This document shows positions 27,266-55,298 of a DNA stretch of 56,980 nt, piece after piece. How positions within the stretch are numbered: the first letter of the stretch is position 1; the number at the start of each line of letters is the position of its first letter. The stretch comes from a virus, in the IMG/VR virus record IMGVR_UViG_3300028024_000012, positions 1 to 56,980 of that record. One strand, written 5' to 3'. The translations under genes and the position numbers were made by a program. Under the pieces are notes generated by a model. That model was not told where the DNA came from, ran no database searches, and saw only the letters and a program-made list of their open reading frames with translations.

Positions 27266-29191
27266 TCAGGCCAATCTGCGGCTAAGGCTTGTGGGTTTCT
27301 TCGGTTCGCTCGGTGAAGCAGCTGCCGCCGCGGGCCCCGCAAACAGGTCTTCCATGTCGGTCTGACCGCTCACGCTTTGCACTTCAAGTTCAGCTTCCAG
27401 ACGGTCCCAGGCATCGTCACTCATGCTGCGCCAGCCGAGACGAACAGCGGCTGCCTCGGCGTAGAGCGAGGTATCGAGCACTTCGTTTCGCTGCGCCGGA
27501 TCCTTGGTCCACTGATACTCGACGAAGCCATCCTTGCGCTTCTTCGGCATCCGGCGCTCGGCGCAGAGCTGTTGGTAGTAGTCATCATCAAAGCCGACGG
27601 GGAAACCGCAATAGCCGCGAGCCAGCGGGTCGGTCTTCTGCAGGTTCTTGTACAGCGCCATCTTCATGCCGGAGACGCCGACGTTGAAGAAACGGCCGGC
27701 ATATTTGAGCGACTTGCCTTCCTTGTTCTTCTCGCGTTTCACCTTGACCAATGCCGGCGCCATGTCGGATTTCGCACCGCGTACCATCATCACCTTGCTA
27801 GAAGGATGGCGCTTCGCCCAATCGAACACATCCTCGGTCCAGGCATTGCCGTCGATCGCCACCATGTCGAGTTTGCGGCGATTGCCGAAAGTATCCGGCC
27901 AAGTTTGCGCAATCAGCGCATCTAACTTCTTCCGCGTCTCAGTGTCCGAGATATGGCCCTCGATCACCCCGTACTGAACGGGCCAGCGTCGCAGGTCGCG
28001 GCCGAAGGCGGTCAGGTTCCACTCGACGCGGTCGCCCTGGCAGTCGAGACCCATCGTCAGTCGGAGACCGCCAACGGGCACGACACCGATCTTCATTTCA
28101 CTTTGCGCGGCACGGTCCCGGATCGATTCCCAGGGTGGGCTCTCGCCGGCCGCCTTGTATGCCCGGCCCACCGTGTCATTCAAGAAGGCCTGCTCCTTGG
28201 CGGGATCTCCCTTCGCCGCAAACCATGCATCACGGATGCTGGAAAAGCTTTCGAGAGGCGAATAGGCCGACCAGAGATAGAAGCCGATGTTCCTGGCATT
28301 CGTGTTGTAGGCCACCCAGTCACCGCGGCGATTGAACTCGTTGCGGTGATGCTGCTCGATCAAGCCACCGCAGGCCGGGCAGACGAAGCAAGGATCGTCT
28401 TCCGGATGGGTCTCGATGAAGGACTGCAGGTTCTCCCATTCCAGCGCATGGAAGTGATCGCAATGCGGACAGGGTACATGGTAGTGCTCCTGTGTCGACT
28501 GCTTGAAAACCCTGGTGATCCGGCAATTGTCCTCGATCAGTGGCGTGCCGATCTTCAGGATCTTCGCCCAGGCAAAGGCTTTACTACGGCTGTCGGCCTG
28601 TGTCTCCGGGTCGCCGGCGTTGTTCAACTCCCATTTCGACAGATCGTCCTGGACCTGCTTCTTGGCGCTGAGCATTGACAGGCTGGCTTCGGAATTCGCT
28701 CCGCTGATCTGCAGGAAGCCGCGCCCATCCTTCCGCTCTTGATAGAGCATGCTGTTCGATGCATCGCGCGACTTGGCATCTGCAAAGAGGTTCGACAGCG
28801 CCGTGGATTGCCGCAACATCGGCTTCCACTTCGTCTTCGACCAGCGGATCGCATTGCCGTCAGTCGGATGCGCGTACATGAAACCGCACGGGTCCATGTC
28901 CATCGACCCGCCGAGGAAGATTTGCGCCAAGACAGTGCCGCCCAGCTGTGCCGATTTCTTGAACACGACGACACGGGCCGGGTGCTCAGGTCCCAGGACC
29001 TCCAGGGGACGCTTGAAAAATGGAAACAGATCGGCGTTGTACGGCCCTGGGAAAGGGCTTTCTGAACCGAACCGGACGTTGTCACGCGCCCAAAGGTTCA
29101 GATCCAGCGGCGGTGGCGGTGTGATGACCTCAGCGACGATGCTCGCCGCCAAATGTGCGGGGTTGGCGAGGAAGGCGCCGCCATCAGGCAT
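27266..29191 (-). CDS. Terminase large subunit (lambda GpA family)
   Basis: A 641-residue packaging motor of the GpA type. The N-terminal ATPase has a Walker-A-like KKSAQLGGT; a CPHC/CPAC zinc-like cluster follows at about residues 240-290. The C-terminal nuclease region contains MGLDCQGD. The start at 29191 has a GAGGAAA site and overlaps the small subunit by 8 bases; the ATG at 29236 would add 15 residues and has no clear site. GpA-type enzymes cut at cos. Confidence 0.92.
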   Translation of the reverse strand: MPDGGAFLANPAHLAASIVAEVITPPPPLDLNLWARDNVRFGSESPFPGPYNADLFPFFKRPLEVLGPEHPARVVVFKKSAQLGGTVLAQIFLGGSMDMDPCGFMYAHPTDGNAIRWSKTKWKPMLRQSTALSNLFADAKSRDASNSMLYQERKDGRGFLQISGANSEASLSMLSAKKQVQDDLSKWELNNAGDPETQADSRSKAFAWAKILKIGTPLIEDNCRITRVFKQSTQEHYHVPCPHCDHFHALEWENLQSFIETHPEDDPCFVCPACGGLIEQHHRNEFNRRGDWVAYNTNARNIGFYLWSAYSPLESFSSIRDAWFAAKGDPAKEQAFLNDTVGRAYKAAGESPPWESIRDRAAQSEMKIGVVPVGGLRLTMGLDCQGDRVEWNLTAFGRDLRRWPVQYGVIEGHISDTETRKKLDALIAQTWPDTFGNRRKLDMVAIDGNAWTEDVFDWAKRHPSSKVMMVRGAKSDMAPALVKVKREKNKEGKSLKYAGRFFNVGVSGMKMALYKNLQKTDPLARGYCGFPVGFDDDYYQQLCAERRMPKKRKDGFVEYQWTKDPAQRNEVLDTSLYAEAAAVRLGWRSMSDDAWDRLEAELEVQSVSGQTDMEDLFAGPAAAAASPSEPKKPTSLSRRLA

Positions 29192-29849
29192 CGCCGGTTT
29201 CCTCTTCGTCAACCAGCTTGGGCTCCCTGTCGGCAATCTGCCGGGCAGCGGTCGATTGTCGTTCGCGCCAGGCGCGCAGCTGGCGGCGCAAAATTACGGT
29301 TGCAGCCTTGCCATCAATTTTCAATTCGGCCGCCAGGGCGTCGCCCAGCGTCGGCATTAACTCTTCGATGCTCGACATTACCTCTGTCAGCACCTTGCTG
29401 AACTCCCGACGCGCATCCTCGGTGCGGATATAGACGCCTTGCTGGGCTTCCTCTTCCCGCCGGGCCTGGCGGGCATTGATCTCGGCCTGCTCTGCACGAG
29501 CGAGCAGCGTGCGTTGCTGCGCATCGTTGAAGGCCGGCGGTGTTGGTAGCTCTGCACCCGCGGGACGAGCCGGCTGCGGTATCGGCCTCGCCTGGGCTGA
29601 AAGCTGGATGGCATCCAACGTGACGCCCAGTTGCTGGCAGGCCAGGTCGACATCGATCAGTGCAGTCCGGCCCTCGCCGACAATGGCATCGCCGCTGATC
29701 TGTCCGGCGGCGATCCATTGCGAGACGCGGCCCGGTGTGACGCCGCGCAGTTGAGCGAAATCGCCCTTGCGCACCAGGTTGCGATGCGGCGGCGAGCCGC
29801 CGTCAAGCAGCGGCGCCGGCGCGGCCATCTCGCCTTGCACCGTCTGCAT
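29184..29849 (-). CDS. Terminase small subunit (Nu1-like)
   Basis: A 221-residue protein with an N-terminal winged-helix DNA-binding part (LRGVTPGRVSQWIAAGQIS) and a helical dimerisation region. It recognises the packaging site and loads the large subunit. It is longer than lambda Nu1 because of a charged C-terminal helix. It is the first gene of the late operon. Confidence 0.83.
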   Translation of the reverse strand: MQTVQGEMAAPAPLLDGGSPPHRNLVRKGDFAQLRGVTPGRVSQWIAAGQISGDAIVGEGRTALIDVDLACQQLGVTLDAIQLSAQARPIPQPARPAGAELPTPPAFNDAQQRTLLARAEQAEINARQARREEEAQQGVYIRTEDARREFSKVLTEVMSSIEELMPTLGDALAAELKIDGKAATVILRRQLRAWRERQSTAARQIADREPKLVDEEETGDA

Positions 29850-30120: not shown

Positions 30121-30750
30121 TCAATAGCCATAGTGGTGGGCCAAGGTCTCGATCGCTGCCTTGAACAGGGTCATCGAAACGATCTCGGCTTGGCGTCCCC
30201 GCTTACGTGACCATTCGCTGATGGGCTTATCATCGCAAACAACATGTTGCAGGATGGGCGCCAGCAATGGACCGACAGCGGCAAGGGCCGAGGCCATGCG
30301 TTGCCGAGCGGCAATTGCCCGGTCACTCATCTCGCCTTTGCCCCCAGGCAGATCATTGAGGGTCGAGATCACACGGGGTTCCATGCCGGCGAGATAGAAG
30401 TCCGCCCGCAGCCGATCGCCCGCATTCCACAGGCGCTCATGGTCACCGTCTTTTTCGAAGGCGAGGTTTTTGCGATTGCGCATGGTATCGAGTAGGGTCG
30501 CGGTCGTCACACGCGCATGCGGCTTTGTCTTGTCGCCTTCCAACTCGACCCGATCATGGGCGCGACGCTCTTTCGTGCCGAAATCATCATTCGACGGTGC
30601 GATGACCAGACCCGTCTTGCGGTCGCGCAGGAGATGGGATGGATCGGTTTTGAACTGCGACGGCTTTTTGGCATAGCCGTTGATCTGCTCACGGATCGAC
30701 TTCCGTCGTGCCGGGTCGATGTTCCGCCGCTTGGCCCTCAGCTTACTCAT
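30121..30750 (-). CDS. DUF6456-like protein, candidate late regulator
   Basis: A 209-residue basic protein. The C-terminal half has the DUF6456 style: an RLRADFYLAG segment near the middle, a long helix, and a C-terminal helix ending ETLAHHYGY. The N-terminus is very basic. The domain is frequent in alphaproteobacterial phages; its function is not established. Position just upstream of a terminator and the packaging genes resembles lambda Q, so an antiterminator or late activator role is plausible by inference. Confidence 0.72.
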   Translation of the reverse strand: MSKLRAKRRNIDPARRKSIREQINGYAKKPSQFKTDPSHLLRDRKTGLVIAPSNDDFGTKERRAHDRVELEGDKTKPHARVTTATLLDTMRNRKNLAFEKDGDHERLWNAGDRLRADFYLAGMEPRVISTLNDLPGGKGEMSDRAIAARQRMASALAAVGPLLAPILQHVVCDDKPISEWSRKRGRQAEIVSMTLFKAAIETLAHHYGY

Positions 30751-30763
30751 GTCAGTTCCCTCA

Positions 30764-31029
30764 TTTGGATACTTGGAGGGTTTGGATAGTTTGGAGAGTC
30801 ATTTCTATATATAAACGCACATGCAAAGCGCATACGTGGTGCGGGGAAACCCTCCAACCTTCCAAACCCTCCATGGCTTCAATCAAATCAAACGCTTAGT
30901 GCCGGACAGTTGCCGGATGGTTGGAGGGTTTAAGGCCCATTTTCAGCGCTCATCGGGCAATCCTCCGCCGTCCGGCGCGCCGTCAGCGCCCGAACCACCC
31001 TTCGAACTCTCCAACCCTCCAAACTCTTC
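30764..31029. repeat. Iteron-like 8-9 bp repeats around the helicase 3' end (candidate origin)
   Basis: Units related to TGGAGGGTT occur in clusters. Four lie in tandem at 30766-30800 (TGGATACT, TGGAGGGTT, TGGATAGTT, TGGAGAGTC). Three are inverted at 30848-30873 (AACCCTCCA, ACCTTCCA, AACCCTCCA). One is at 30922-30930, and two or three inverted units at 31005-31029 lie inside the helicase coding end. Between them the DNA is AT-rich (30801-30813). Placement beside a D5-type helicase suggests a replication origin. Confidence 0.6.
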
Positions 31030-32535
31030 CTGGGTGATCGCGATGCCGGTGTAGTACATCACGCCCATCTTTTCCTTGTGGTAGCCGAGGTCGGAGAGGC
31101 GCCGACCGAAGGACGTGCCGCTGACCGGGCTAATGCCGTTCGCGCCCGCCCATTTGGTGTATATCTGGTAGAGCCGCGTCGCCTGGACGCTGCCGCCGGT
31201 CTCGCGCACTGTCGCCGTGCGCATGAATTCGCCGACCGGGTCGCTCTCGGTCCGGTATTCCTCGGTCGCGCGTTTCACGCTCTCCGGCAGCACCAGGCCG
31301 CGCTCCCGCCAGAGGCGATAGCCGTCCAAAAGCCAGTTCAGGATGCCGGATGCCTCAGCCTTCAATTTTTCCGCCAAGCGCTTGTCGCGCTCCTCAGGGG
31401 GAATGTACTGGTCGAACGGCACCAGCAGGATGCGGCGCCAGATGCCTTCATCCTGGCCCCGGATGTTGGGCTTGATGTTGACCGAGAGCACCAGCTTGAA
31501 ACTCGGCATGAACTCGAAAAAGCTTTCATGCAGGTTTCGCGCCGTCATCTTCTCCCCGCCCGTGATCTGCTTCACCACCGATTCCGAGAGGCGCTGCCCG
31601 ACCTCCGGTTCGCTCGCGGTGACGAGCCTGCCGCCAGGCAGCCGTGCGAGATCCGGCGTGGCGTCGCCGCCGCGCCGTCGCTCATCGAACATGAAAGTCT
31701 GGATGGGCAGCGTCAGGCCGTAATCGCCCATGATGTACTGGATCGTATCCATCATGGTGGATTTGCCGTTGGCGCCCTTGCCGTGCGCGATCAGCATCTG
31801 CTGTTCGCCGGTATCGCCGGTCAGCACATAGCCGAACCAGGTCTGCAGGAAGAGCTGCGTGGGGTGGTCCGGGATGATGCGGGCGATGAAGGCATTCCAC
31901 AGGGGGCATGTGGCTTCGGCGTCATACACGACTTCGGCACAGCGCGTCTTCAGGTCGCTATGGAGATGCGGCCGCAACGTGATATCGCCATCGATCAGCG
32001 AACGCGTGCCGTTGTCATTGGCGGCGACCTTGGTCGGCAATTCCAGCGTGCCGTTCAGCACGTTCAGCAGGAACGGCCTGTCGTCCAATTCGCGCGGCGG
32101 GCGCCTCAGATAAGGCATGGCGCTGCGCAGCATCGCGTCGACCTTGGCCGAATTGCCGCTTGCGGCCTGCCACTTGAAATGGTTCTCGACCCTCTTTTGC
32201 CATTCCGCCGCATCGAAACCCGGCGGCGGATCTTTCATCAAGCGGTCGAATTCCACTTCCAGGGCCTTGACCTCGCCCGAGATCGCCTCTGCCGTGCGAT
32301 GCGCACATTTCATGGCCTCGGCATCGCCGGCTTCGCCCTGCCAGCGCCGGCCGTCCCAGACATACCAGCGAGCGCCATCGACCCACATCAGGTTGTTGCC
32401 ATAGCGCGCGATCAAACGGCGCGCATTGCCGAGATCGTTGCGCGGCTCCCGCGCAAGATGCAGATCATCGGCCGGCTGCTCCGCCTCATCGACAGCCGCA
32501 AAGATCGACTTCATGGCCTCTTGTTCATTACTCAT
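30943..32535 (-). CDS. D5/P4-type superfamily 3 helicase
   Basis: A 530-residue phage helicase. A D5_N-like N-terminal domain leads to the SF3 core: Walker A in HGKGANGKST, the Walker-B region around RLPGGRLVTASE, and motif C with LVLSVNIKP followed by the Arg-rich RRILLVPF. It should unwind the phage origin as a hexamer, with the primase encoded just upstream. The coding end contains iteron-like repeats that translate as GGLESSKGG, probably outside the fold. Confidence 0.92.
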   Translation of the reverse strand: MSNEQEAMKSIFAAVDEAEQPADDLHLAREPRNDLGNARRLIARYGNNLMWVDGARWYVWDGRRWQGEAGDAEAMKCAHRTAEAISGEVKALEVEFDRLMKDPPPGFDAAEWQKRVENHFKWQAASGNSAKVDAMLRSAMPYLRRPPRELDDRPFLLNVLNGTLELPTKVAANDNGTRSLIDGDITLRPHLHSDLKTRCAEVVYDAEATCPLWNAFIARIIPDHPTQLFLQTWFGYVLTGDTGEQQMLIAHGKGANGKSTMMDTIQYIMGDYGLTLPIQTFMFDERRRGGDATPDLARLPGGRLVTASEPEVGQRLSESVVKQITGGEKMTARNLHESFFEFMPSFKLVLSVNIKPNIRGQDEGIWRRILLVPFDQYIPPEERDKRLAEKLKAEASGILNWLLDGYRLWRERGLVLPESVKRATEEYRTESDPVGEFMRTATVRETGGSVQATRLYQIYTKWAGANGISPVSGTSFGRRLSDLGYHKEKMGVMYYTGIAITQEEFGGLESSKGGSGADGAPDGGGLPDER

Positions 32536-33653
32536 CCTTCGGCCGCACCCTTCAGCATGTCATTGAAGTCCTTCCCCGGCGCCGCCCATGCAACGCGTAC
32601 CGTCAAACCCATATGTTGAAATCGACGCCGGGCGCAGTCGACCAGCGCCCGCGTGATGAACGGATCGCTATCGCCATCCCCCAGGATGATCAGCTCCCGC
32701 GCTTGCGCCGGCGGCACGAAGCCCGGCCGCGACAGATCCGGCCAAGGTGGCGGGATCATGACGCCAGGTCTGGTCGGGTGCTCCCGCTCCGCCTTGCAGC
32801 GGCACCGATGCGTATCACCGGTACCGGCGATATTGCCGAGGCTGAGTGCGGCCCAAACCGGCGTCATGTCGCCATTGAGGCGCAGGGCCTGCATCACCGA
32901 CAGGCAGGTCTCAATGCCCTCGCCGATGACCAGCCTTTCCCCGGCGGCGGCGAAGCGTGCGCAGCCGCCCCAGCATTGTCCCAGCATCTTCTTGGCCTGC
33001 TTGCCGATCGGCGCCTTGGCCTCGCCCGTGCGATCGAGAAAGGTGCGGTGGATGCCGCGTACCTTGCCGTCGACATCCTGTACGCCGGCCACCATGGCGG
33101 GGAATGATGGGCTGCCAGGCTCGGAATCGCTCGGCAGGTTGGGATGAAAGCGCAGGCTGGGCGGCATGCCGCCGATCATCGCGACATCGATGCCGCGCTT
33201 GGCAAGATAGCTCTCGACCAATGTGCCGGCCGCCGGCTTGGACTCCCGCCAGATGCCGATCGCCCACTCTTGGATGAAAGCTTTGCGCGCCGCATCGCGG
33301 GCCTCGGAAAAGCTGGCCTTGATCGGCGCTGCGAAGACCTGCCGCGGTTCCACCTTGCTCGCTTCCTCACTGGGCAGCAGCCCCGCGCGCGCGGCCAATT
33401 CTCGGATGGCGGTCTTGTCGTCGACCCCATGGATATCGCGATAGAAGCGGATCACGTCGCCAGCGGCGCCGCAGCCATAGCATCGATAGAGGTTCTTGCC
33501 GGCATGGACATAGAAGCTCGGCGACTTCTCCCGGTGAAAGGGACAGAGGCCGACCAGTTCCCGCCCCGCCCGTTTCAGCGCGACCTTTTCCGCCACGACC
33601 TCATACAGGGTTATGGCGCGTTTCAGGTCGGTGATGGAGATCCGGCCGGTCAT
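32532..33653 (-). CDS. DnaG-type primase: CHC2 zinc finger plus Toprim
   Basis: A 373-residue primase. The zinc finger is CPFH then CYGCG (residues about 37-62). The Toprim part shows the catalytic Glu in VIGEGIETC and the DxD in LGDGDSD. It lacks the long central domain of cellular DnaG, as usual in phages. It overlaps the helicase gene by 4 bases; the two form the replication unit. It is divergent from hicA. Confidence 0.92.
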   Translation of the reverse strand: MTGRISITDLKRAITLYEVVAEKVALKRAGRELVGLCPFHREKSPSFYVHAGKNLYRCYGCGAAGDVIRFYRDIHGVDDKTAIRELAARAGLLPSEEASKVEPRQVFAAPIKASFSEARDAARKAFIQEWAIGIWRESKPAAGTLVESYLAKRGIDVAMIGGMPPSLRFHPNLPSDSEPGSPSFPAMVAGVQDVDGKVRGIHRTFLDRTGEAKAPIGKQAKKMLGQCWGGCARFAAAGERLVIGEGIETCLSVMQALRLNGDMTPVWAALSLGNIAGTGDTHRCRCKAEREHPTRPGVMIPPPWPDLSRPGFVPPAQARELIILGDGDSDPFITRALVDCARRRFQHMGLTVRVAWAAPGKDFNDMLKGAAEG

Positions 33654-33748: not shown

Positions 33749-33967
33749 ATGAAGGGGAAGGAACTGCTGAAGCTGCTGAAGCGCTATGCCGGCCAGAAGG
33801 ACATCCCGTTCAACTATGACGGCGGCCACGGCAAGGGCGGACATGGCCGGGTCTATGTGGGGGACAAATTCACCACCATCCCCAGCCTGCACCAGGAACT
33901 GAAAACCGGCCTGACGCTCGCGATCATCAAGCAGCTCGGCATCGACAAACGGGACCTCGGCCTCTAA
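33749..33967 (+). CDS. hicA: HicA-like mRNA interferase toxin
   Basis: A 72-residue HicA/YcfA family protein, a double-stranded-RNA-binding-like fold. It shows the N-terminal helix KELLKLLKRY, a glycine-rich strand region with His27 and His32 (one is probably catalytic), and the C-terminal TIPSLHQELKTGLTLAIIKQ pattern. HicA toxins cut mRNA. The antitoxin gene follows after 42 bases. Confidence 0.87.
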   Translation: MKGKELLKLLKRYAGQKDIPFNYDGGHGKGGHGRVYVGDKFTTIPSLHQELKTGLTLAIIKQLGIDKRDLGL

Positions 33968-34009
33968 GGCCGGGGTCGCCGAACCGACGGTAAGAAAGGA
34001 ATGCAAGTC

Positions 34010-34498
34010 ATGGAAACCATCTCTCTCGCCTATCCGGCCAAGCTGACCCCCGATGACGGCGGCTTTATCGTCACCTTCCGCGATGTGCCGGAGGCGCTGA
34101 CCCAGGGCGATGACGAGGCGGAGGCCCTGGCCCAAGCGGCGGATGCGTTGAGCGTGGCCCTGGCGGGTTATGTCAAGGCCGGCCGCGATCTGCCGGCGCC
34201 GACCGAAGCGAAGCGCGGCGAGACGATCGTGCATGCCGACCCGACGCTGGCGGCCAAGGTGGCGCTGCGGCGCATGATGTTCGACATGGCGATCAACACA
34301 TCCCAACTCGCCCGACGCCTCGATGTCGATGTGAAGGAAGCCCGCCGCCTGCTCGACCCCGACCATCCCAGCAAGCTGAACGGCCTCGACCAGGCCTTGC
34401 GCGCGTTGGGGCATCGCGCGGTGCTGCATGTCATGCCGCTGCAGCGCGATCTGCCGGTGCGCAACGCTAAGCCGGCGCCGAAGAAGAAGGTAGGCTAG
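34010..34498 (+). CDS. hicB: HicB-like antitoxin with HTH domain
   Basis: About 162 residues. The N-terminal half is the partial RNase-H-like fold of HicB (DGGFIVTFRDVPEALTQGD), which binds the toxin. The C-terminal half is a helix-turn-helix (INTSQLARRLDVDVKEARRLL), which should bind the operator in the promoter. Start at 34010 has an AAGGA site at good spacing; the ATG at 34001 is too close to it. Confidence 0.87.
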   Translation: METISLAYPAKLTPDDGGFIVTFRDVPEALTQGDDEAEALAQAADALSVALAGYVKAGRDLPAPTEAKRGETIVHADPTLAAKVALRRMMFDMAINTSQLARRLDVDVKEARRLLDPDHPSKLNGLDQALRALGHRAVLHVMPLQRDLPVRNAKPAPKKKVG

Positions 34499-35253: not shown

Positions 35254-36621
35254 TTACGCTACCTCGAGAGAGTTGAAGCCCGACAGCAACGAGCCCTGAC
35301 GCAATGCTGGCTCGATCCGGTTGCGTGCGATATTGACGGAATCCGGATTGAGTTCGATCAACACAGCGCTGCGGTTAAGTTCCGCAGCGACTAGGCCCGT
35401 GGTTCCAGCGCCACCGAACGGATCGAGCACGATTGCAGGCACAGGCGATTGCCTCGAGCAGGAACAGCTAGGTTCCCACGCCACCGTCTGATGCGAGACC
35501 GAGCCGCGTTGCGAGCCTTTCCAACGGCAGGTCTCATCATGCTGATCTTCACGCCGGACGGCGGACTCAATCGAGACACCCGGCTGCGGGGTGAACGACT
35601 TCGTGGTGACGCGTCGCCACTGTGCGCCGCAATTCGGGCAGCACCCCTTTTCCGACGTGCCCGCCATGATGCAGGGCCGTACTAATCCTGGAGGGAAGGT
35701 CGCGAAATGGGCTTCCTTGAATGGCTTCGTTGCGATGGTCCAGACATTGCGCAGATTGGCACCGCCGGCCATCTGTTCTTCGACCGGCATCTGATCCCAG
35801 AGGTCATTAAACCCCGCATGACGCCGACCATGGCCGCGCTGCTTCTCCGTCTTGGCGCCTTTCTCCCGCCCGTTCGGATGGAATGAACCGTGCGCGCCAG
35901 GCTCGGTGTTCCAGCCATCGGGCATCTTATAGGCGCCTCGTCCCTTGGCGTCTGTGCGCACCGCTACCGCGTCATAGAAATAGCGCTCGCTCTTCGTGAA
36001 GAGGAACATCTTTTCATGCGACGTTGCGGGCCGATCACTGATGGATTCCGGCATCGGGTTTGGCTTATGCCAGATTACCTCCGATCTGACCCACCAACCG
36101 AAGTCCTGCATCGCGATCGCGAAGCGGTTCGGCACCATGCAGAGGTCTTTCGGCTTCAGCGTGCCGCCGGCGACGACACGTCCTCCATGGGCGCCTGCGA
36201 GATTGCCGCCATTACCACTGGTGCCGACGCGCGAGGTCTTTTCATAGTCGGGCACGTAGATCGGCCCCACCGTCGAAAACGGCTTATCTCGGAACGTGCG
36301 GTCATCGGTCTTCAGGCGCTTGACCTCATCGGCCCGGCGGCCATTGGGCGAGGTCGCATAGCAATCGCCGTAGTTCACCCAACAGGTGCCATCCGGCCGC
36401 AGAACACGCCAGACCTCGGCAAAGACCTCATTGACCATGACGTCGAGATGTTCGCCCAGGGTCGGCTCACAGCCGATTTCCTTGGCCTTGTCCGGGTGAC
36501 CGTCAGGCAGGTAAGAGCGCAGGCCCCAATAGGGCGGTGAGGTCACCGCGCAATGTACCGAATTGTCCGGCAACTCGCGGAGCTTCTCGCGGACCTCGCC
36601 GAGGAGGATGCGGATCGTCAT
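35254..36621 (-). CDS. Beta-class DNA methyltransferase (N6-adenine or N4-cytosine)
   Basis: A 455-residue methyltransferase. The catalytic motif TSPPYW is near the N-terminus (residues about 26-31) and the SAM-binding DPFGGAGTTG near the C-terminus, the beta-class order. A Cys cluster (CCPNCG) lies in between. TSPPY fits N4-cytosine or N6-adenine transfer; specificity cannot be read. Start 36621 (MTIRILLGEV) is family-like; the frame upstream of it is open but does not look coding. No restriction enzyme is seen beside it. Confidence 0.9.
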   Translation of the reverse strand: MTIRILLGEVREKLRELPDNSVHCAVTSPPYWGLRSYLPDGHPDKAKEIGCEPTLGEHLDVMVNEVFAEVWRVLRPDGTCWVNYGDCYATSPNGRRADEVKRLKTDDRTFRDKPFSTVGPIYVPDYEKTSRVGTSGNGGNLAGAHGGRVVAGGTLKPKDLCMVPNRFAIAMQDFGWWVRSEVIWHKPNPMPESISDRPATSHEKMFLFTKSERYFYDAVAVRTDAKGRGAYKMPDGWNTEPGAHGSFHPNGREKGAKTEKQRGHGRRHAGFNDLWDQMPVEEQMAGGANLRNVWTIATKPFKEAHFATFPPGLVRPCIMAGTSEKGCCPNCGAQWRRVTTKSFTPQPGVSIESAVRREDQHDETCRWKGSQRGSVSHQTVAWEPSCSCSRQSPVPAIVLDPFGGAGTTGLVAAELNRSAVLIELNPDSVNIARNRIEPALRQGSLLSGFNSLEVA

Positions 36622-36794
36622 CGCGCACCCGCGCCAGGCGCCAGCAACGCCTTCACTTCGGCCTCGGTCAGACACATGGCAGTTGCGACTTCGGCGATAG
36701 ACGATCCGCGTCGCTTCAGCGACCGTGCCATCTTCATCCTGATCGGCATCAGGATGTCGTCTGGTTTCGGCATGTCGCCTAGCTTGCCGCGCAT
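36618..36794 (-). CDS. Small hypothetical protein, 58 aa
   Basis: A basic helical protein with an HTH-like end (SSIAEVATAMCLTEAEVKALL). The start at 36794 overlaps the preceding stop (TGATG), with an AGGGGAG site. It is coupled to the methyltransferase gene by a 4-base overlap. A small DNA-binding role is possible. Confidence 0.62.
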   Translation of the reverse strand: MRGKLGDMPKPDDILMPIRMKMARSLKRRGSSIAEVATAMCLTEAEVKALLAPGAGAR

Positions 36795-36985
36795 CACAGC
36801 AGACTCCCCTGTCGCGCCGTCTTCGCTGCATCCGAGGAGGCCAGCCGCTCCTCCCGTGCCTTCTGCACCTCGGCACGGTGCTCCGAGCAGGCCCAGATCA
36901 CCGGCCCCGGCGGCAGGCCGAAGCCGTAACAGGCGAGCCCGGTGCATGCTTCGCGGACGCATTGATGGACCTCAGGATCGCTCAT
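36794..36985 (-). CDS. Cys-rich small protein, 63 aa
   Basis: A short protein with cysteines and histidines near the start (HQCVREACTGLACYG and ACSEHR), likely metal-binding, followed by a charged helix. It overlaps its neighbours at both ends, so it belongs to a tightly coupled leftward operon. Function unknown. Confidence 0.65.
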   Translation of the reverse strand: MSDPEVHQCVREACTGLACYGFGLPPGPVIWACSEHRAEVQKAREERLASSDAAKTARQGSLL

Positions 36986-37961: not shown

Positions 37962-38450
37962 TCACTTCGTCTCCTCGCGCATCATGGTGCGACACACGGC
38001 GATGACATGGCCGAGCGCGCCGATGACCGGCATCGCTTTTCCGTGGATGCGCGCCGCTTCGCGCGGCTGGATGCCGCCGTCTTCCATCGCCTTGGCGAAT
38101 TGCTCGAACAGCTTGGCGGCGGCGGCGCCCACCTTGGCCATATGGATCGGCAGCGACTTGCCGTTGGTGGCGTGCATCGGCACCAGGGCAAAGCCCGATT
38201 CCGCCGCCAGGAACTCGGTGACGATCGGCTGGCCGCAGGCCATTTCCAGCGTGCGGATCTGCGACGGGCGCATTTCCGTGTCGGACATCGGGTCGGTGTA
38301 ACGCTGCGCCTGGGACTGGCTGAGGCCGAGCAGGTCAGCGACGCGGGTCGTGCCGCCGCAGGCATAGACCAGCCGCGCGATTGCCTCTTTCAGCGTCCCT
38401 TCCGGACGCGGCTTGTTCAGTTTCTGACGCGGTCTGCCGGGGAGTGTCAT
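37962..38450 (-). CDS. CII-like phage regulatory protein
   Basis: A 162-residue DNA-binding protein. A helix-turn-helix lies at GGTTRVADLLGLSQSQAQRYTD, shown here in part, followed by a helical core and a C-terminal helical region, the arrangement of phage CII-family activators. Start 38450 has a GAGGTGA site; the ATG at 38504 has none. It lies just downstream of the Cro-like gene, as cII does after cro in lambda. Its targets are not visible. Confidence 0.68.
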   Translation of the reverse strand: MTLPGRPRQKLNKPRPEGTLKEAIARLVYACGGTTRVADLLGLSQSQAQRYTDPMSDTEMRPSQIRTLEMACGQPIVTEFLAAESGFALVPMHATNGKSLPIHMAKVGAAAAKLFEQFAKAMEDGGIQPREAARIHGKAMPVIGALGHVIAVCRTMMREETK

Positions 38451-38514
38451 GCCGTCACCTCTTTTGTGACGGCACTGACAAGCGATGCAATGCGGGAGCG
38501 ACAACGGGTAACCA

Positions 38515-38867: not shown

Positions 38868-38896
38868 CTATTACGACAATCGTAACATCGTCGCAA
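38868..38896 (-). promoter_or_regulatory. Leftward early promoter with operator in the spacer
   Basis: On the minus strand TTGCGA (38891-38896) and TAATAG (38868-38873) are 17 bp apart. Operator O1 (38871-38885) lies across the spacer and the -10. Repressor bound there would block the promoter of the Cro-like gene. Confidence 0.65.
38871..38885. promoter_or_regulatory. Operator O1 (TTACGA-CAA-TCGTAA)
   Basis: A perfect inverted repeat with 6-bp arms and a 3-base centre. It is one of five related sites in the immunity region and lies over the leftward promoter. Confidence 0.75.
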
Positions 38897-38905
38897 GGCA
38901 GAATA

Positions 38906-38920
38906 TTACGAAAGTCGTAG
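38906..38920. promoter_or_regulatory. Operator O2 (TTACGA-AAG-TCGTAG)
   Basis: Same repeat with one mismatch in the last base. Centre is 35 bp from O1. It lies between the leftward promoter and the cI start. Confidence 0.7.
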
Positions 38921-38948
38921 ATGTGCGGCCGCGATCTTCAGACCATAA

Positions 38949-38963
38949 TTACGAGATGCGTAA
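38949..38963. promoter_or_regulatory. Operator O3 over the cI start codon (TTACGA-GAT-GCGTAA)
   Basis: Same repeat with one mismatch. It covers the ATG of the repressor gene (38956-38958), so the repressor should limit its own synthesis. A -10-like CATAAT at 38944-38949 lies 6 bases before the ATG and no ribosome site is seen, which points to a leaderless message. Confidence 0.68.
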
Positions 38964-39666
38964 TAAGTGGCTGAAAGATCGACTAAAAGAACTCAGGAAA
39001 ACTCAATCCGCGCTGGCGACGCAGATGGGTTTGCCCACGCCGCGCATTTCCGAGATCATTGCCGGCGATCGGCGCATCGCGTCACACGAGGTGCCGGTTA
39101 TCGCCGCCTTCCTGGAATGGCCGGAATCGCTGGTGCTGCAGAACATCACGGAAGTGGCCGGGGGTGCCTTCACGCCAAATGCGGAAGCTACCGACATGCA
39201 GATGCTGGCCGTCACGGTCGTCGGCGAAGTCGCAGCGGGTGTTTTCCGCGAATCGCTTGAATTGCCGCCGGAGGACCAGTTCCAGATTTATGCGTTGCTC
39301 GACCCCAGGTTTCGAGGCATGCCCCATTTCGGTTTGCGGGTGAGAGGCCCGTCCATGAATCAGCTGTATCCCGAGGGCAGTTTCGTCGTCTGCGTGCCGC
39401 TGATCCACCTTGGTGAGGGTTTCATGCCGAAAAGCGGCAACCGGGTGGTTGTCGAGCGGCGCAACAAGCTCGGCGAAGTGGAAGCCACCATCAAGGAGAT
39501 GGTCTACGACAAGGACGGCCAGCCCTGGCTATGGCCGCGATCGGATCACCCCGAGTTCCAGACGCCCTGGCCGCTGCCCACCGGCAATAACGGGCACGGC
39601 CTGGATGATCACGAAGATATCCGGATCTCCGCTTTGGTCGTCTTCAGCGTCCGCCCGGAGGTCTGA
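38956..39666 (+). CDS. cI-type repressor, HTH plus LexA/S24 self-cleaving domain
   Basis: A 236-residue repressor. The N-terminal HTH covers about residues 5-45 (QSALATQMGLPTPRISEIIAG, part). The C-terminal S24 domain shows the cleavage pair Ala94-Gly95 in GEVAAGVF, the catalytic Ser133 in GPSMNQLYPEG and a likely Lys180 in EATIKEM. RecA-stimulated cleavage should inactivate it on DNA damage. Upstream in-frame ATGs exist (to 38590), but those residues would be antisense to the Cro-like gene. Its start codon lies in operator O3. Confidence 0.9.
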   Translation: MRNKWLKDRLKELRKTQSALATQMGLPTPRISEIIAGDRRIASHEVPVIAAFLEWPESLVLQNITEVAGGAFTPNAEATDMQMLAVTVVGEVAAGVFRESLELPPEDQFQIYALLDPRFRGMPHFGLRVRGPSMNQLYPEGSFVVCVPLIHLGEGFMPKSGNRVVVERRNKLGEVEATIKEMVYDKDGQPWLWPRSDHPEFQTPWPLPTGNNGHGLDDHEDIRISALVVFSVRPEV

Positions 39667-47435: not shown

Positions 47436-49286
47436 ATGATCCGCCCTGACGAGCTAATCATCGACAACTTCGCCGGCGGCGGCGGTGCCAGCACGGGGAT
47501 CGAGATGGCGCTTGGCCGGCCGGTGGACGTAGCCATCAATCACGACCCCGAAGCCGTGGCGATGCACCAGGCGAACCACCCGCACACGCTGCACTATTGC
47601 CAATCGGTCTGGAAGGCTGATCCCCGCGACGTCGTGATGGCGGCATCCCGCCGGCGTGGCAGCGATGCGCCGCTGCCGGTGGGACTGGCCTGGTTCTCCC
47701 CGGACTGCAAGCACTTCAGCAAGGCCAAGGGCGGCAGGCCGGTGGAAAACCACATCCGGGATCTGGCCTGGGTCGTGGTGCATTGGGCAAAGCTTGTGAA
47801 GCCGCGCGTCATCATGCTGGAGAACGTCGAGGAGTTCCGGACCTGGGCACCTCTGCGGGTGCGCAAATGGCCCAATGGAACAGATATGTTCGACCTGCAT
47901 GGAAACGCGGTGCTGGAGCCGGACCCTGCTCGGGCCGGCCAGACGTTCTGGCGCTGGATCCGGCAGCTGCGCAGCCATGGGTATACGGACATTCAATGGC
48001 GCGAAGTGCGCGCGATGACCAGCGACGCCCCGACGATCCGCAAACGACTAATTATTAAAGCTGTCCGGGCTGGCGAGAAGGTCCGCTGGGCGAAGCCGAC
48101 ACATGGTCCCGCAAAGGGACTGAAGCCCTACCGGACGGCGGCCGAATGCATCGATTGGTCGCTGCCCTGTCCATCGATCTTCCTCACCAAGGAAGAAGCG
48201 CGAAAGGTCGGTGCAAAACGCCCGCTGGTCGAGAATACCGAACGCCGCATCGCCGCCGGCACCCGCAGATTCGTTCTCCAGGCCGCGAAGCCATTCATCA
48301 TCCCGATCACCCATGCCGGCGACAGCCGCACGCACGATATCGACGAGCCGATGCGGACGCAGACTACGGCCAATCGGGGCGAGCATGCCTTGATTGTGCC
48401 GACCTTCGTCGGTTGCGGGGGGCGCGCAGGCCAATCAAGGCCTCGTAGCGGCGATGAACCATTCGCCACCGCCACTGCGAAGCCGGATACCTGCGTCGTT
48501 GCGGCCCACATTACCAAGTTCCGCAGCAATGCCATCGGCAGCGACATGACTGAGCCGATGCCGACCGTCACCGCCAACAGCTTTATCAAGCGGCCCGGCG
48601 GCAGTGCACCTGTGGGCCTGGTGACCGCCTATTTGGCCCAGCACAATACGGGCGTCATCGGCCGCGCCGCGAACGAGCCGCTTTCGACCGTTACGAAGGC
48701 TGGCGCGCAGCAGCAGATCGTCACAAGCCACTTGGTCAAGCTGCGCAATAACCAAGATGGTCAAAGTGTCGAGACACCGATGCCGACTCTGACGAGCGGC
48801 GGCGGTCATGTGGGCGAGATACGTTGCTTCCTCGTCAAATATTACGGCTCCGGCGGACAGGACCAGGCGGTCACAGAGCCGATGCACACCCTCACGGCCA
48901 AGCCCAGAATGGGCCTGGTACAGGCCGAGCTGGTCGAGGTGCAGACCGACCTGCCGGATGATCTCCGCTATGCGGCATGGTGGGTTGCGCGTTTCCTGGA
49001 AAAGTACGATCCGGAACCTAAACCTCTGATCGTGGGGCCGAGGGCCTCTGCTGTTGGCACTGGCGGGTACGTGCTGACCGATATCGGCATGCGGATGCTG
49101 ACCCCACGCGAACGGTTCCGAGCGCAGGGTTTCCCGGACAGCTACATCATCGACCCGATCTACAACGGTAAACCGCTCAGCGAAACCGCCCAGGGCCGCA
49201 TGTGTGGGAACTCGGTCTGCCCCGACATGGCGGCGGCAGAGGTGGCGGCACAGTTCGGACCGATCGAGTTGGCGGAGGTCGCATGA
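47436..49286 (+). CDS. C5-cytosine DNA methyltransferase with repeated recognition domain
   Basis: A 616-residue Dcm-type enzyme. Motif I is FAGGGGASTGIE (residues 12-23), the catalytic Cys91 lies in SPDCKHFS, and the ENV motif at 129-131. Between about residue 300 and 490 a unit with the core EP-x-x-T-x-T occurs six times (Glu304, 341, 373, 414, 446 and 481). Such repeats are in the target-recognition region. The C-terminal end carries LTPRERFRAQGFP. Probably a phage self-protection enzyme; target unknown. Confidence 0.92.
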   Translation: MIRPDELIIDNFAGGGGASTGIEMALGRPVDVAINHDPEAVAMHQANHPHTLHYCQSVWKADPRDVVMAASRRRGSDAPLPVGLAWFSPDCKHFSKAKGGRPVENHIRDLAWVVVHWAKLVKPRVIMLENVEEFRTWAPLRVRKWPNGTDMFDLHGNAVLEPDPARAGQTFWRWIRQLRSHGYTDIQWREVRAMTSDAPTIRKRLIIKAVRAGEKVRWAKPTHGPAKGLKPYRTAAECIDWSLPCPSIFLTKEEARKVGAKRPLVENTERRIAAGTRRFVLQAAKPFIIPITHAGDSRTHDIDEPMRTQTTANRGEHALIVPTFVGCGGRAGQSRPRSGDEPFATATAKPDTCVVAAHITKFRSNAIGSDMTEPMPTVTANSFIKRPGGSAPVGLVTAYLAQHNTGVIGRAANEPLSTVTKAGAQQQIVTSHLVKLRNNQDGQSVETPMPTLTSGGGHVGEIRCFLVKYYGSGGQDQAVTEPMHTLTAKPRMGLVQAELVEVQTDLPDDLRYAAWWVARFLEKYDPEPKPLIVGPRASAVGTGGYVLTDIGMRMLTPRERFRAQGFPDSYIIDPIYNGKPLSETAQGRMCGNSVCPDMAAAEVAAQFGPIELAEVA

Positions 49287-52111: not shown

Positions 52112-53723
52112 CTCCGACCTGCAATCCGCGAATTCGATCGAGGACCAGCTGAGCCTCTGCCGCGACAGGGTCGCGCAGCTCGGCGCCGAGACGGTCGAGA
52201 TCTATACCGACGCGGCAATCAGCGGCGCCCAGATCATGACGCGGGCGGCGGTGCGGAAGCTGCTGGCCGATGCTCGCGCCGGCCGGTTCGATATCCTGCT
52301 GACCGAAGCGCTCGACCGGCTGTCCCGCAGCCAGGCCGATATCGCCACCATCTTCGAGCGCCTGAGCCATGCCGGCATCCGGATCATCACTTTGTCCGAG
52401 GGCGAGGTCAGCGAACTGCATATCGGCCTGAAAGGCACGATGAACGCCCTGTTCCTGAAGGACCTGGCCGCCAAGGTGCGCCGGGGCCAGCGCGGCATGG
52501 TCGATCGCGGCAAGGCCTCCGGCGGCCTCGCCTATGGCTATCGCGTGGTGCGGCGCATCGGGCCGGACGGCGAGGTCGAGACCGGCCTGCGCGAGATCCA
52601 TCCGGACCAGGCCGAGGTCATCCGGCGCATCTTCCGGGAGTTCATCGACGGCCGGTCCAGCCTGAAGATCGCCAGCGGCCTCAACAGCGACGGCATCCCT
52701 GCGCCGCGCGGCGGGCTGTGGAACCGCAGCAGCATCAGCGGCAATCGCGGCCGGGCGGGCGGCATCCTGCACAACCGCCTCTATATCGGCCGGATCACCT
52801 ATGGGCGCCTGACCTTCCGCAAGGACCCGGATACCGGCAGGAAGCGCGGCACCGCCATGCCCGAAAGCGGCTGGACAACCCAGACCAACGAAGCGATGCG
52901 CATCATCGACGACGAGACGTGGCACCAGGCGCAGAAGGCCCTCAGCGCCTATGACGGCCTCGCCACCGCCAAATGCCGCCGGCCGAAGCGGCTGCTCTCT
53001 GGCCTGGTCACCTGCGGCTGCTGCGGGGCGGCCTATATCGTCATCGACAAGGAGCGCATGGGCTGCTCGTCCAACAAAGAGGGGCGCGGCTGCACCAATG
53101 GAAGGCGGGTGCATTCCGACATGCTCGAACGGCGGACCTTGGACGGGCTGCGCAACCAGATGCTCGCACCGGATGCCATCTCAGCCTTTGTCCGGGAATA
53201 CCACGCCATCTGGAAGCAGCAGCGGGCCGATTCCCTGGGCGACCGTAGCCGGATCGAGCGCAGCCTGAAAGAGGTCGAGGGGAAGATCGGCCGGATCGTC
53301 ACTGCGATCGCCGAGGGCACCGACGTGCCGGCGATGCGGACAACCCTGAAGGATCTGGAGGGGCAGCGCGCGGGGCTGGCACGGCGCCTGGCCGATATGC
53401 TGGACCCGACCGTCATCCCCATGCAGCCGAACCTGACAGAGACGTACCAGCGCCTGGTGGACGATCTGGCCGCCACGCTGAACGCCGCCACCGAGGACCG
53501 CACCCGGGCTTTCGGCCTGCTGCGCGGGCTGATCGACCGGATCGTGCTGCATCCGACCGAGAAGCGGGCCGGATTCGAAATGGAGATTTTCGGGCAATTG
53601 GCAGGGATTCTGCGGCTTGCAAGCGGTCAAGAGGTGGAATGTTCTCCGACCGTTCTCAATGCGAGCAATCAGGGGTTAGTGATGGCGGAGGGAGGGGGAT
53701 TCGAACCCCCGATAGGGATTTAA
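52074..53723 (+). CDS. Large serine recombinase (integrase)
   Basis: A 549-residue large serine recombinase. The resolvase domain (residues 4-150) has the nucleophile Ser13 in YARYSSD. A recombinase domain follows (about 165-270), then a zinc ribbon (CGCC and CSSNKEGRGC), a coiled coil and a C-terminal extension. Start 52074 (MTMIRAAIYAR) fits the family; the in-frame ATG at 52017 does not. The last 13 codons lie in the tRNA gene across attR, so the C-terminus depends on integration. It is the only integrase in the prophage. Confidence 0.93.
   Translation: MTMIRAAIYARYSSDLQSANSIEDQLSLCRDRVAQLGAETVEIYTDAAISGAQIMTRAAVRKLLADARAGRFDILLTEALDRLSRSQADIATIFERLSHAGIRIITLSEGEVSELHIGLKGTMNALFLKDLAAKVRRGQRGMVDRGKASGGLAYGYRVVRRIGPDGEVETGLREIHPDQAEVIRRIFREFIDGRSSLKIASGLNSDGIPAPRGGLWNRSSISGNRGRAGGILHNRLYIGRITYGRLTFRKDPDTGRKRGTAMPESGWTTQTNEAMRIIDDETWHQAQKALSAYDGLATAKCRRPKRLLSGLVTCGCCGAAYIVIDKERMGCSSNKEGRGCTNGRRVHSDMLERRTLDGLRNQMLAPDAISAFVREYHAIWKQQRADSLGDRSRIERSLKEVEGKIGRIVTAIAEGTDVPAMRTTLKDLEGQRAGLARRLADMLDPTVIPMQPNLTETYQRLVDDLAATLNAATEDRTRAFGLLRGLIDRIVLHPTEKRAGFEMEIFGQLAGILRLASGQEVECSPTVLNASNQGLVMAEGGGFEPPIGI
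53683..53703. repeat. attR: right copy of the 21-bp attachment repeat
   Basis: Identical to 638-658. It is the 3' end of the tRNA-Ser gene, including CCA. The phage copy restores the tRNA, so the host keeps a working gene after integration. Confidence 0.9.
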
Positions 53724-53776
53724 GTCCCTATAACGGTTTAGCAAACCGCCGCCTTCAGCCGCTCGGCCACCCCTCC
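53683..53776 (-). tRNA. tRNA-Ser (anticodon GCT)
   Basis: A class II tRNA. The acceptor stem GGAGGGG pairs with TCCCTCC, the discriminator is G, and CCA is encoded. The anticodon loop TTGCTAA is closed by ACGGT-type pairs, so the anticodon is GCT (codons AGC and AGU). The long variable arm TAGGGACTTAAATCCCTA is typical of serine tRNAs. The T arm is GGGGG-TTCGAAT-CCCCC. The gene is intact at the prophage boundary. Confidence 0.95.
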
Positions 53777-53916: not shown

Positions 53917-54624
53917 TCAGCGACGCTTATATTGCTCGTCGCCGAACAGGATACGGCGCTGTTCGGCACTGAAGGACTGGGTGCTGGTATATTGTTCCAG
54001 CACCTTAAGTCCGCGCTGCACCGCCGGGCGCCCGTCAATCTCCTGGAACCAGCGCTTCACATTCGTCAAGGCATTGAGATCGACACCCTGACGCTCCCAG
54101 TATCGGATCCAGGGCCAGGTCGCCATGTCGGCGATGCTGTATTCCTCGCCGGCCAGGAAACGCGCTTCACCGAGACGCTTATCCATCACGCCATAGAGCC
54201 GCTTGGCCTCATTGGTATAGCGATCGATCGCATAGGGAATTTTCTCTGGCGCATAGAGACGGAAGTGATGCGCCTGCCCCAGCATGGGGCCGATGCTGCT
54301 CATCTGAAACATCAGCCATTGCAAGACGGCGTAACGTTGCGCCCCTGTCGCCGGCAGGAACTGCTTGGTCTTTTCCGCAAGATAAATCAGCATGGCGCCG
54401 GATTCGAACAAGGCAATCGGCTTGCCCCCCGGGCCGTCGGGATCGACCATCGCCGGCACCTTGTTATTGGGGCTGATTTTCAGAAAAGCCGGATCGAACT
54501 GCGCGCCCGCACCGATGTCTACACCATGCGCAATGTAAGGCAGTCCCATTTCTTCCAGGGCGATATGTATTTTATGGCCGTTCGGCGTCGGCCAGGAATA
54601 CATATCAATGGTCTTCTCCGTCAT
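53917..54624 (-). CDS. Glutathione S-transferase (YfcG/Nu-like), copy 1
   Basis: A 235-residue GST. The N-terminal thioredoxin fold shows SWPTPNGHKIHIALEE, the NNKVPAMVDPDGP turn, and the GSH-binding ESGAMLIYLAEK. The helical domain follows. It resembles the Nu-class disulfide-bond oxidoreductases of E. coli (YfcG and YghU). A near neighbour (54681-55298) is clearly a paralogue. Host gene beyond the tRNA. Confidence 0.88.
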   Translation of the reverse strand: MTEKTIDMYSWPTPNGHKIHIALEEMGLPYIAHGVDIGAGAQFDPAFLKISPNNKVPAMVDPDGPGGKPIALFESGAMLIYLAEKTKQFLPATGAQRYAVLQWLMFQMSSIGPMLGQAHHFRLYAPEKIPYAIDRYTNEAKRLYGVMDKRLGEARFLAGEEYSIADMATWPWIRYWERQGVDLNALTNVKRWFQEIDGRPAVQRGLKVLEQYTSTQSFSAEQRRILFGDEQYKRR

Positions 54625-54646: not shown

Positions 54647-54691
54647 CGTTCTAGTCCGGCTCGTTCTTATCCGGCTCGTCCTAATCCAGCA
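54647..54691. repeat. Three tandem 15-bp units between the GST genes
   Basis: CGTTCTAGTCCGGCT, then CGTTCTTATCCGGCT, then a third, partial unit CGTCCTAATCCAG. The third reaches the stop codon of the upstream GST gene. It may reflect slippage and has no known role. Confidence 0.6.
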
Positions 54692-55298
54692 GCTTCAGCG
54701 CGCGCTGGACGGCCGGCCGCGAACCAATGGCTTTTTTCCAGCGATAGATCGCCGGGAAATCGGCGAAGTCGTAACCGAAATTGCCGAGGCCCTTGACCCA
54801 GGGCCAACAGGCGATATCCGCGATCGAATAGTCGCCTGCAAGATACGGCACCTCCGCGAGACGCTTCTCCATGACCCCGGCCAATCGGCCAACTTCATTG
54901 GTATAGCGATCGATCGCATAGGGAATGCGTTCCGGCGCGGCGCTGCGAAAGTGATAGCATTGTCCGAACATCGGGCCTATGCCGCCCATCTGGAACATCA
55001 GCCATTGCAAGGTGATGTTTCTGTCATGCGGATCTTGCGACAGAAATTTGCCTGTCTTTTCTGCCAAATAGATCAGAATGGCACCGGATTCGAAGATCGA
55101 GATCGGCTTGCCATCCGGTCCGTCGGAATCGACGATGGCCGGGATCTTGTTGTTCGGACTGATCCGCAGGAAGGCAGGGTCAAATTGCTGACCGGCGCCG
55201 ATATCCACCTTATGCAAGCGGATGGGGAGGCCGGTTTCCTCGACCATGATATGGATCTTGTGGCCGTTCGGTGTGCCCCAGGTATAAAGATCGATCAT
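54681..55298 (-). CDS. Glutathione S-transferase (YfcG/Nu-like), copy 2
   Basis: A 205-residue GST with the same motifs as its neighbour: TPNGHKIHIMVEE, NNKIPAIVDSDGP, ESGAILIYLAEK, then the helical domain. It lacks the extra 20-residue C-terminal tail of copy 1. The two genes are in the same direction with a 56-bp gap and look like a tandem duplication. Confidence 0.88.
   Translation of the reverse strand: MIDLYTWGTPNGHKIHIMVEETGLPIRLHKVDIGAGQQFDPAFLRISPNNKIPAIVDSDGPDGKPISIFESGAILIYLAEKTGKFLSQDPHDRNITLQWLMFQMGGIGPMFGQCYHFRSAAPERIPYAIDRYTNEVGRLAGVMEKRLAEVPYLAGDYSIADIACWPWVKGLGNFGYDFADFPAIYRWKKAIGSRPAVQRALKLLD

Follow-up and report, generated by a model that had tools for sequence, protein, structure and literature searches.

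An iteron array at the 3' end of a D5-type helicase gene: a probable replication origin in a tailed phage, with counterparts across related loci

The IMG/VR virus record IMGVR_UViG_3300028024_000012, analysed here over its whole length of 56,980 nucleotides (the window), has a G+C content of 62% and codes for head, tail, baseplate and packaging proteins. Its segment 30764-31029 is in all likelihood the replication origin of this phage, read by the helicase encoded beside it. A sequence-only reading had proposed that the phage's own D5-type helicase reads an origin here, and the proposal is now supported by the nature of the adjoining gene (D5_N domain and predicted winged helix), by the retention of the repeats in relatives, and by origins annotated at the same position in phages whose helicases are relatives or counterparts of this one. 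The array very probably belongs to the kind of origin known from Staphylococcus aureus pathogenicity islands (SaPI), phage-inducible chromosomal islands (PICI) and P4, found here in a full tailed phage.

The array occupies positions 30765-31022; it starts inside the helicase gene, at its 3' end, and stops just short of the next gene (30121-30750). Direct reading of the units finds ten clear copies related to TTGGAGGGT, eleven with the outermost, along with two degenerate ones. The consensus is a 9-bp word, TTGGA(G/T)(A/G)GT, and the units are arranged in four clusters, in both orientations and mostly 8-9 bp apart, confirming the layout first described (at least ten units). Cluster A consists of units at 30765 (TTGGATACT), 30773 (TTGGAGGGT), 30782 (TTGGATAGT) and 30791 (TTGGAGAGT) on the plus strand, and cluster B of units at 30849 (TTGGAGGGT), 30857 (TTGGAAGGT) and 30866 (ATGGAGGGT) on the minus strand, the two being opposed across a 49-bp core. 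A second opposed pair lies on the helicase side, formed by cluster C, where a plus-strand TTGGAGGGT follows the degenerate units at about 30901-30919, and cluster D, with minus-strand units at 30997 (TCGAAGGGT), 31006 (TTGGAGAGT) and 31014 (TTGGAGGGT). Start-to-start distances are 8, 9 and 9 in cluster A, 8 and 9 in B, and 9 and 8 in D. The strict pattern TTGGA[GT][AG]GT occurs seven times in 266 bp, whereas 40 dinucleotide-shuffled versions of the window give 0-1 copies. The 6-mer cluster most over-represented in the 57 kb is likewise found here, CTCCAA at 30773-31022 (it scores 8.3, and the highest score among 60 shuffles is 7.6), with runners-up that score close to it (GACCTC at 36142-36429, for example). 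The 6-mer scan alone is thus modest evidence, and it is the relatives, the unit spacing and the count of strict matches that carry the case against chance. The region contains no DnaA box and a single IHF-like match.

The helicase, of 530 residues, possesses the D5_N domain, the SF3-like ATPase and the (here predicted) C-terminal winged helix that characterize initiators of the SaPI/PICI/P4 type, and both Foldseek and sequence searches match it to hexameric or dodecameric primase-helicases of the D5 kind. Its AlphaFold2 model (mean predicted local distance difference test score 89) includes a confident C-terminal winged helix at residues 433-500, composed of helices 433-441, 452-465 and 473-482 and of strands 486-490 and 492-500, while the tail from residue 511 to 530 is of low confidence or disordered. 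The sequence-only reading placed two or three units inside the 3' end of this gene; there are three, all of cluster D, overlapping codons just past the predicted binding domain, as the winged helix ends at residue 500 and the disordered tail begins at 511. The accompanying suggestion, that the repeats constrain the end of the protein, thus holds for the tail only, beyond the winged helix. The start of the helicase gene is overlapped by 4 bp by the gene for a primase (Table 1).

Table 1. Positions of the elements of the candidate origin and of the adjoining replication genes in the window
Feature	Position	Strand	Content or basis
Iteron cluster A	30765-30799	+	Four units; one flank of core
Core spacer, candidate unwinding region	30800-30848		Alternating purine-pyrimidine runs
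Iteron cluster B	30849-30874	-	Three units; other flank of core
Iteron cluster C	30901-30929	+	One perfect unit (30921), two degenerate CCGGA units
Iteron cluster D	30997-31022	-	Three units, within helicase gene 3' end, codons ~505-513
D5-type initiator helicase, 530 aa (D5_N, SF3-like ATPase, C-terminal Pox_D5/winged helix)	30943-32535	-	Pfam, AlphaFold2, Foldseek
Codons of predicted DNA-binding winged helix (residues ~430-500)	31036-31248	-	Pox_D5 430-483 and AlphaFold2
DnaG-type primase (Zn-ribbon, DUF7146, Toprim_3)	32532-33653	-	Pfam, open reading frame (ORF)

As to the relatives, homologues of the helicase were drawn from named phages and plasmids, from genomes and from viral contigs, and in each locus a tile spanning -150 to +450 relative to the stop codon of the helicase gene (the origin tile) was ranked against the other tiles of the same locus. 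The origin tile holds the strongest repeat cluster in 70 of 95 non-redundant loci, where 7.1 would be expected; as the loci were picked by helicase similarity, this shows that such helicases have iterons, not that iterons need such helicases. With one fixed pipeline, an iteron family is found in 57 of the 95 origin tiles versus 15 of 1132 control tiles, opposed multi-unit clusters are found in 53 and 6 of these, respectively, and 227 of 325 unit intervals across the surveyed loci measure 9 bp. A further 48 loci, collected afterwards by means of different queries and mixing alphaproteobacterial loci with Bacillus phages (the first set being mostly alphaproteobacterial), give a similar picture, with 32 origin tiles ranked first versus 4.0 expected. 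The origin proposal had been staked on close relatives keeping the repeats, and they do retain them at the helicase 3' end. Each relative bears a word of its own at or near the helicase stop, with the layout constant and the word varying: GTAACAAAA in phi105, AGCGGCTTG in a Tritonibacter plasmid that carries a terminase gene, CTTCCA in Sphingomonas and kin, CTGTCC in Rhizobium phage RR1-A and others. The nearest relative (locus L060, helicase 66% identical) has kept all four clusters, but its unit has drifted toward TTGGAC(N)GT, and the first cluster D units, translated by eye, encode FGGLESS in the window and IGQLESS in L060, suggesting that the change of word extends into the coding overlap. 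About ten relatives likewise have at least two units inside the helicase gene, while in others the gene stops before the repeats. The exact long iteron pattern finds no match among viral contigs, and a DNA match between the segment and a Corynebacterium phage was rejected, since it reflects repeated codons where a long gene of unknown function begins. A separate observation from the survey is that of very dense arrays of a single 6-mer (CTGAGC in 12 copies, GCGGCA in 25 copies) at about +1421 to +1700 of the helicase stop in loci L118-L120 and at about +1393 in L138.

These data also bear on two other functions that could be assigned to the repeats. One is that of operators, through which the helicase or another regulator would control the helicase gene or the downstream gene, and part of the array does immediately precede the next, co-oriented gene (the ORF at 30121-30750). 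However, the array is at the end and not at the start of the helicase gene, opposed clusters around a core would make an unusual operator layout, and the downstream neighbour belongs to many unrelated families in the relatives (the largest group accounts for 33 of 94) while the repeats persist regardless. We thus consider a purely regulatory array very unlikely, even if regulation could take place through the same sites in addition to the origin role. The other is that of a pac/cos site, at which the small terminase would recognise the DNA for packaging; the ORF of this terminase (29184-29849) is about 0.9 kb away. To this reading we assign a negligible probability, as in the relatives the repeats track the helicase, plasmid-borne relatives retain them, and the annotations of phages Sfi21 and A2 put an origin at this position.

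The origin reading is further supported by comparison with known systems, in which, as here, iterons are found directly 3' of the helicase gene. One example is Cch2 of the staphylococcal cassette chromosome mec (SCCmec), a helicase of the D5_N family, whose C-terminal domain binds in vitro direct repeats located just downstream of its own gene (three AAGTG units, as opposed to the ten or eleven 9-bp units here), and the SaPI Rep protein binds downstream repeats likewise (PMC7581432). Another example is the Escherichia coli PICI, where a plasmid can replicate from rep and the iterons downstream of it, which always form two sets with an AT-rich region between them (PMC6092414). Compared with these rep-ori units, known from islands of both Gram-positive and Gram-negative bacteria, the array described here is in a full tailed phage, has its own word, a core rich in alternating purine-pyrimidine runs, and a second opposed pair that reaches into the helicase gene; the window itself is not a PICI, a small helper-dependent satellite, since it codes for a terminase, a major head protein, a tail sheath, a tape measure protein and a baseplate. 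A third example is P4, where the winged helix of the alpha protein binds the origin repeats (PMC4234260), and where crr, just 3' of alpha, has 8-bp units in both orientations; however, the P4 unit is GGTGAACA rather than TTGGAGGGT, its primase is fused to the helicase while here it is encoded by a separate gene, and P4 has an additional distant ori. In Sfi21 (Streptococcus thermophilus) and A2 (Lactobacillus), the annotated origin extends into the 3' end of the gene for the primase/helicase and has an AT-rich core surrounded by short repeats, although these are phages of low G+C hosts and use other words (AGTAAC, ACGGGAG). The annotated origin of Sfi21, the annotated rep_origin of A2 and P4 crr all begin at or beside the end of the helicase gene, each with short repeats of its own word.

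A different precedent is plasmid pRN1, whose replication protein also has a helicase and a winged helix and is thought to use a stem-loop (PMC4234260), raising the question of whether the functional unit could be an RNA or DNA hairpin of the inverted arms rather than double-stranded iterons. The segment does fold better than its shuffles (z -3.6), but such a value is expected, as inverted units pair automatically; a hairpin would need neither tandem 9-bp units in each arm nor unequal unit numbers; and the pRN1-type origin is a large stem-loop without iterons, while iterons are present here. An Rfam scan of the segment returned no family at threshold and one sub-threshold match. A hairpin as the functional unit therefore appears exceedingly improbable.

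Replication from double-stranded iterons at this site, and binding of the helicase to the units, are what we infer from the parallels above. By the same analogy, the helicase would bind the 9-bp units via its C-terminal winged helix and load as two facing rings (a double hexamer) on the opposed clusters A and B; the core between them would then open, the rings would unwind outward, and the adjacent primase would prime the exposed strands. Clusters C and D may serve as extra loading sites or as copy-control sites. In agreement with recognition by the winged helix, the more alike the C-terminal domains, the more alike the words, even once identity of the helicase core is corrected for (partial r 0.23, exceeded in 0 of 500 permutations), a correlation that supports the link but falls short of proof, as related helicases share everything. 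A number of points weigh against the proposal. Identity of the helicase core has an equal partial correlation with the word (0.23) given the C-terminal domain, and a column-by-column test favours the C-terminal domain only mildly (p 0.019), with the top columns elsewhere in the protein, a pattern that shared ancestry would give. From about a quarter to a third of the surveyed loci have no detectable cluster at the stop codon, and in some the cluster is displaced to 0.5-3 kb downstream of the helicase stop. GC skew is uninformative, showing no turn at the array.

The core deserves separate consideration. The AT-rich core described at the outset as lying amid all the clusters is indeed found between A and B (TATATATA, 30806-30813), but not between C and D. 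Positions 30800-30819 are 75% AT, compared with 38% for the genome, and alternating purine-pyrimidine runs follow one another at 30806-30813, 30815-30825 (ACGCACATGCA) and 30828-30838 (GCGCATACGTG). Measured as the share of bases in runs of at least 8, they make up 59% of this core versus 1.7% of the window, and this is the strongest such 51-nt stretch in the 57 kb. In 44 survey cores, 24% of bases are in runs, versus 2.4% elsewhere in the loci, 0.6% just past cluster A, 3.0% in AT-matched windows, 3.1% in shuffled and 6.8% in dinucleotide-shuffled cores; the first run begins a median of 16 bp from cluster B, and the enrichment persists after thinning the loci to 50% identity (n=18). As the idea came from the first locus set, it was re-tested on the later one, where 26 cores have 17.5% of bases in runs, versus 4.6% in dinucleotide shuffles and 1.9% elsewhere (p 1.4e-4), with seven of the 26 lacking any run. 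Words of the GCGC type are over-represented in the cores beyond alternation, which suits Z-prone or easily twisted DNA. The spacers of P4 crr have no such runs, and thus the feature is not universal. A narrow literature search found no description of alternating runs in origin cores of this kind. That the tract, starting some 16 bp from where cluster B borders the core, is a conserved functional element (for unwinding, or Z-prone), and that full phages of this kind share one origin geometry with exchangeable initiator-iteron words, is a proposition that we hold to be evenly balanced; the tract is offered as a testable feature.

Overall, a layout previously known from a few phages, satellites and islands is, judging by the compared loci, the norm among some hundred related phages, every one of which uses a word of its own, and an organisation described as peculiar to PICIs would extend to tailed phages generally, as the older phage origins also indicate. 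For a great many phages and plasmids, it should therefore be possible to locate the origin from sequence alone, by finding a D5-type helicase gene and then its stop codon, and many natural initiator-iteron pairs are gained for working out how a winged helix chooses its word.

Some other features of the window can be mentioned. HicA-like (33749-33967, plus strand) and HicB-like (34001-34498, plus strand) genes adjoin the primase gene and are a probable toxin-antitoxin pair. Two genes encode DNA methyltransferases (35254-36876 and 47436-49286). Three TTACG...CGTAA palindromes at 38868-38965, near a gene for a CII-like regulator (37962-38504), look like the operator region of a lysogeny switch. 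A tRNA-Ser(GCT) gene (53683-53776, minus strand) lies near two adjacent phrog_9684 paralogues (53917-54624 and 54681-55298), in a region that may be an integration site or host flank.
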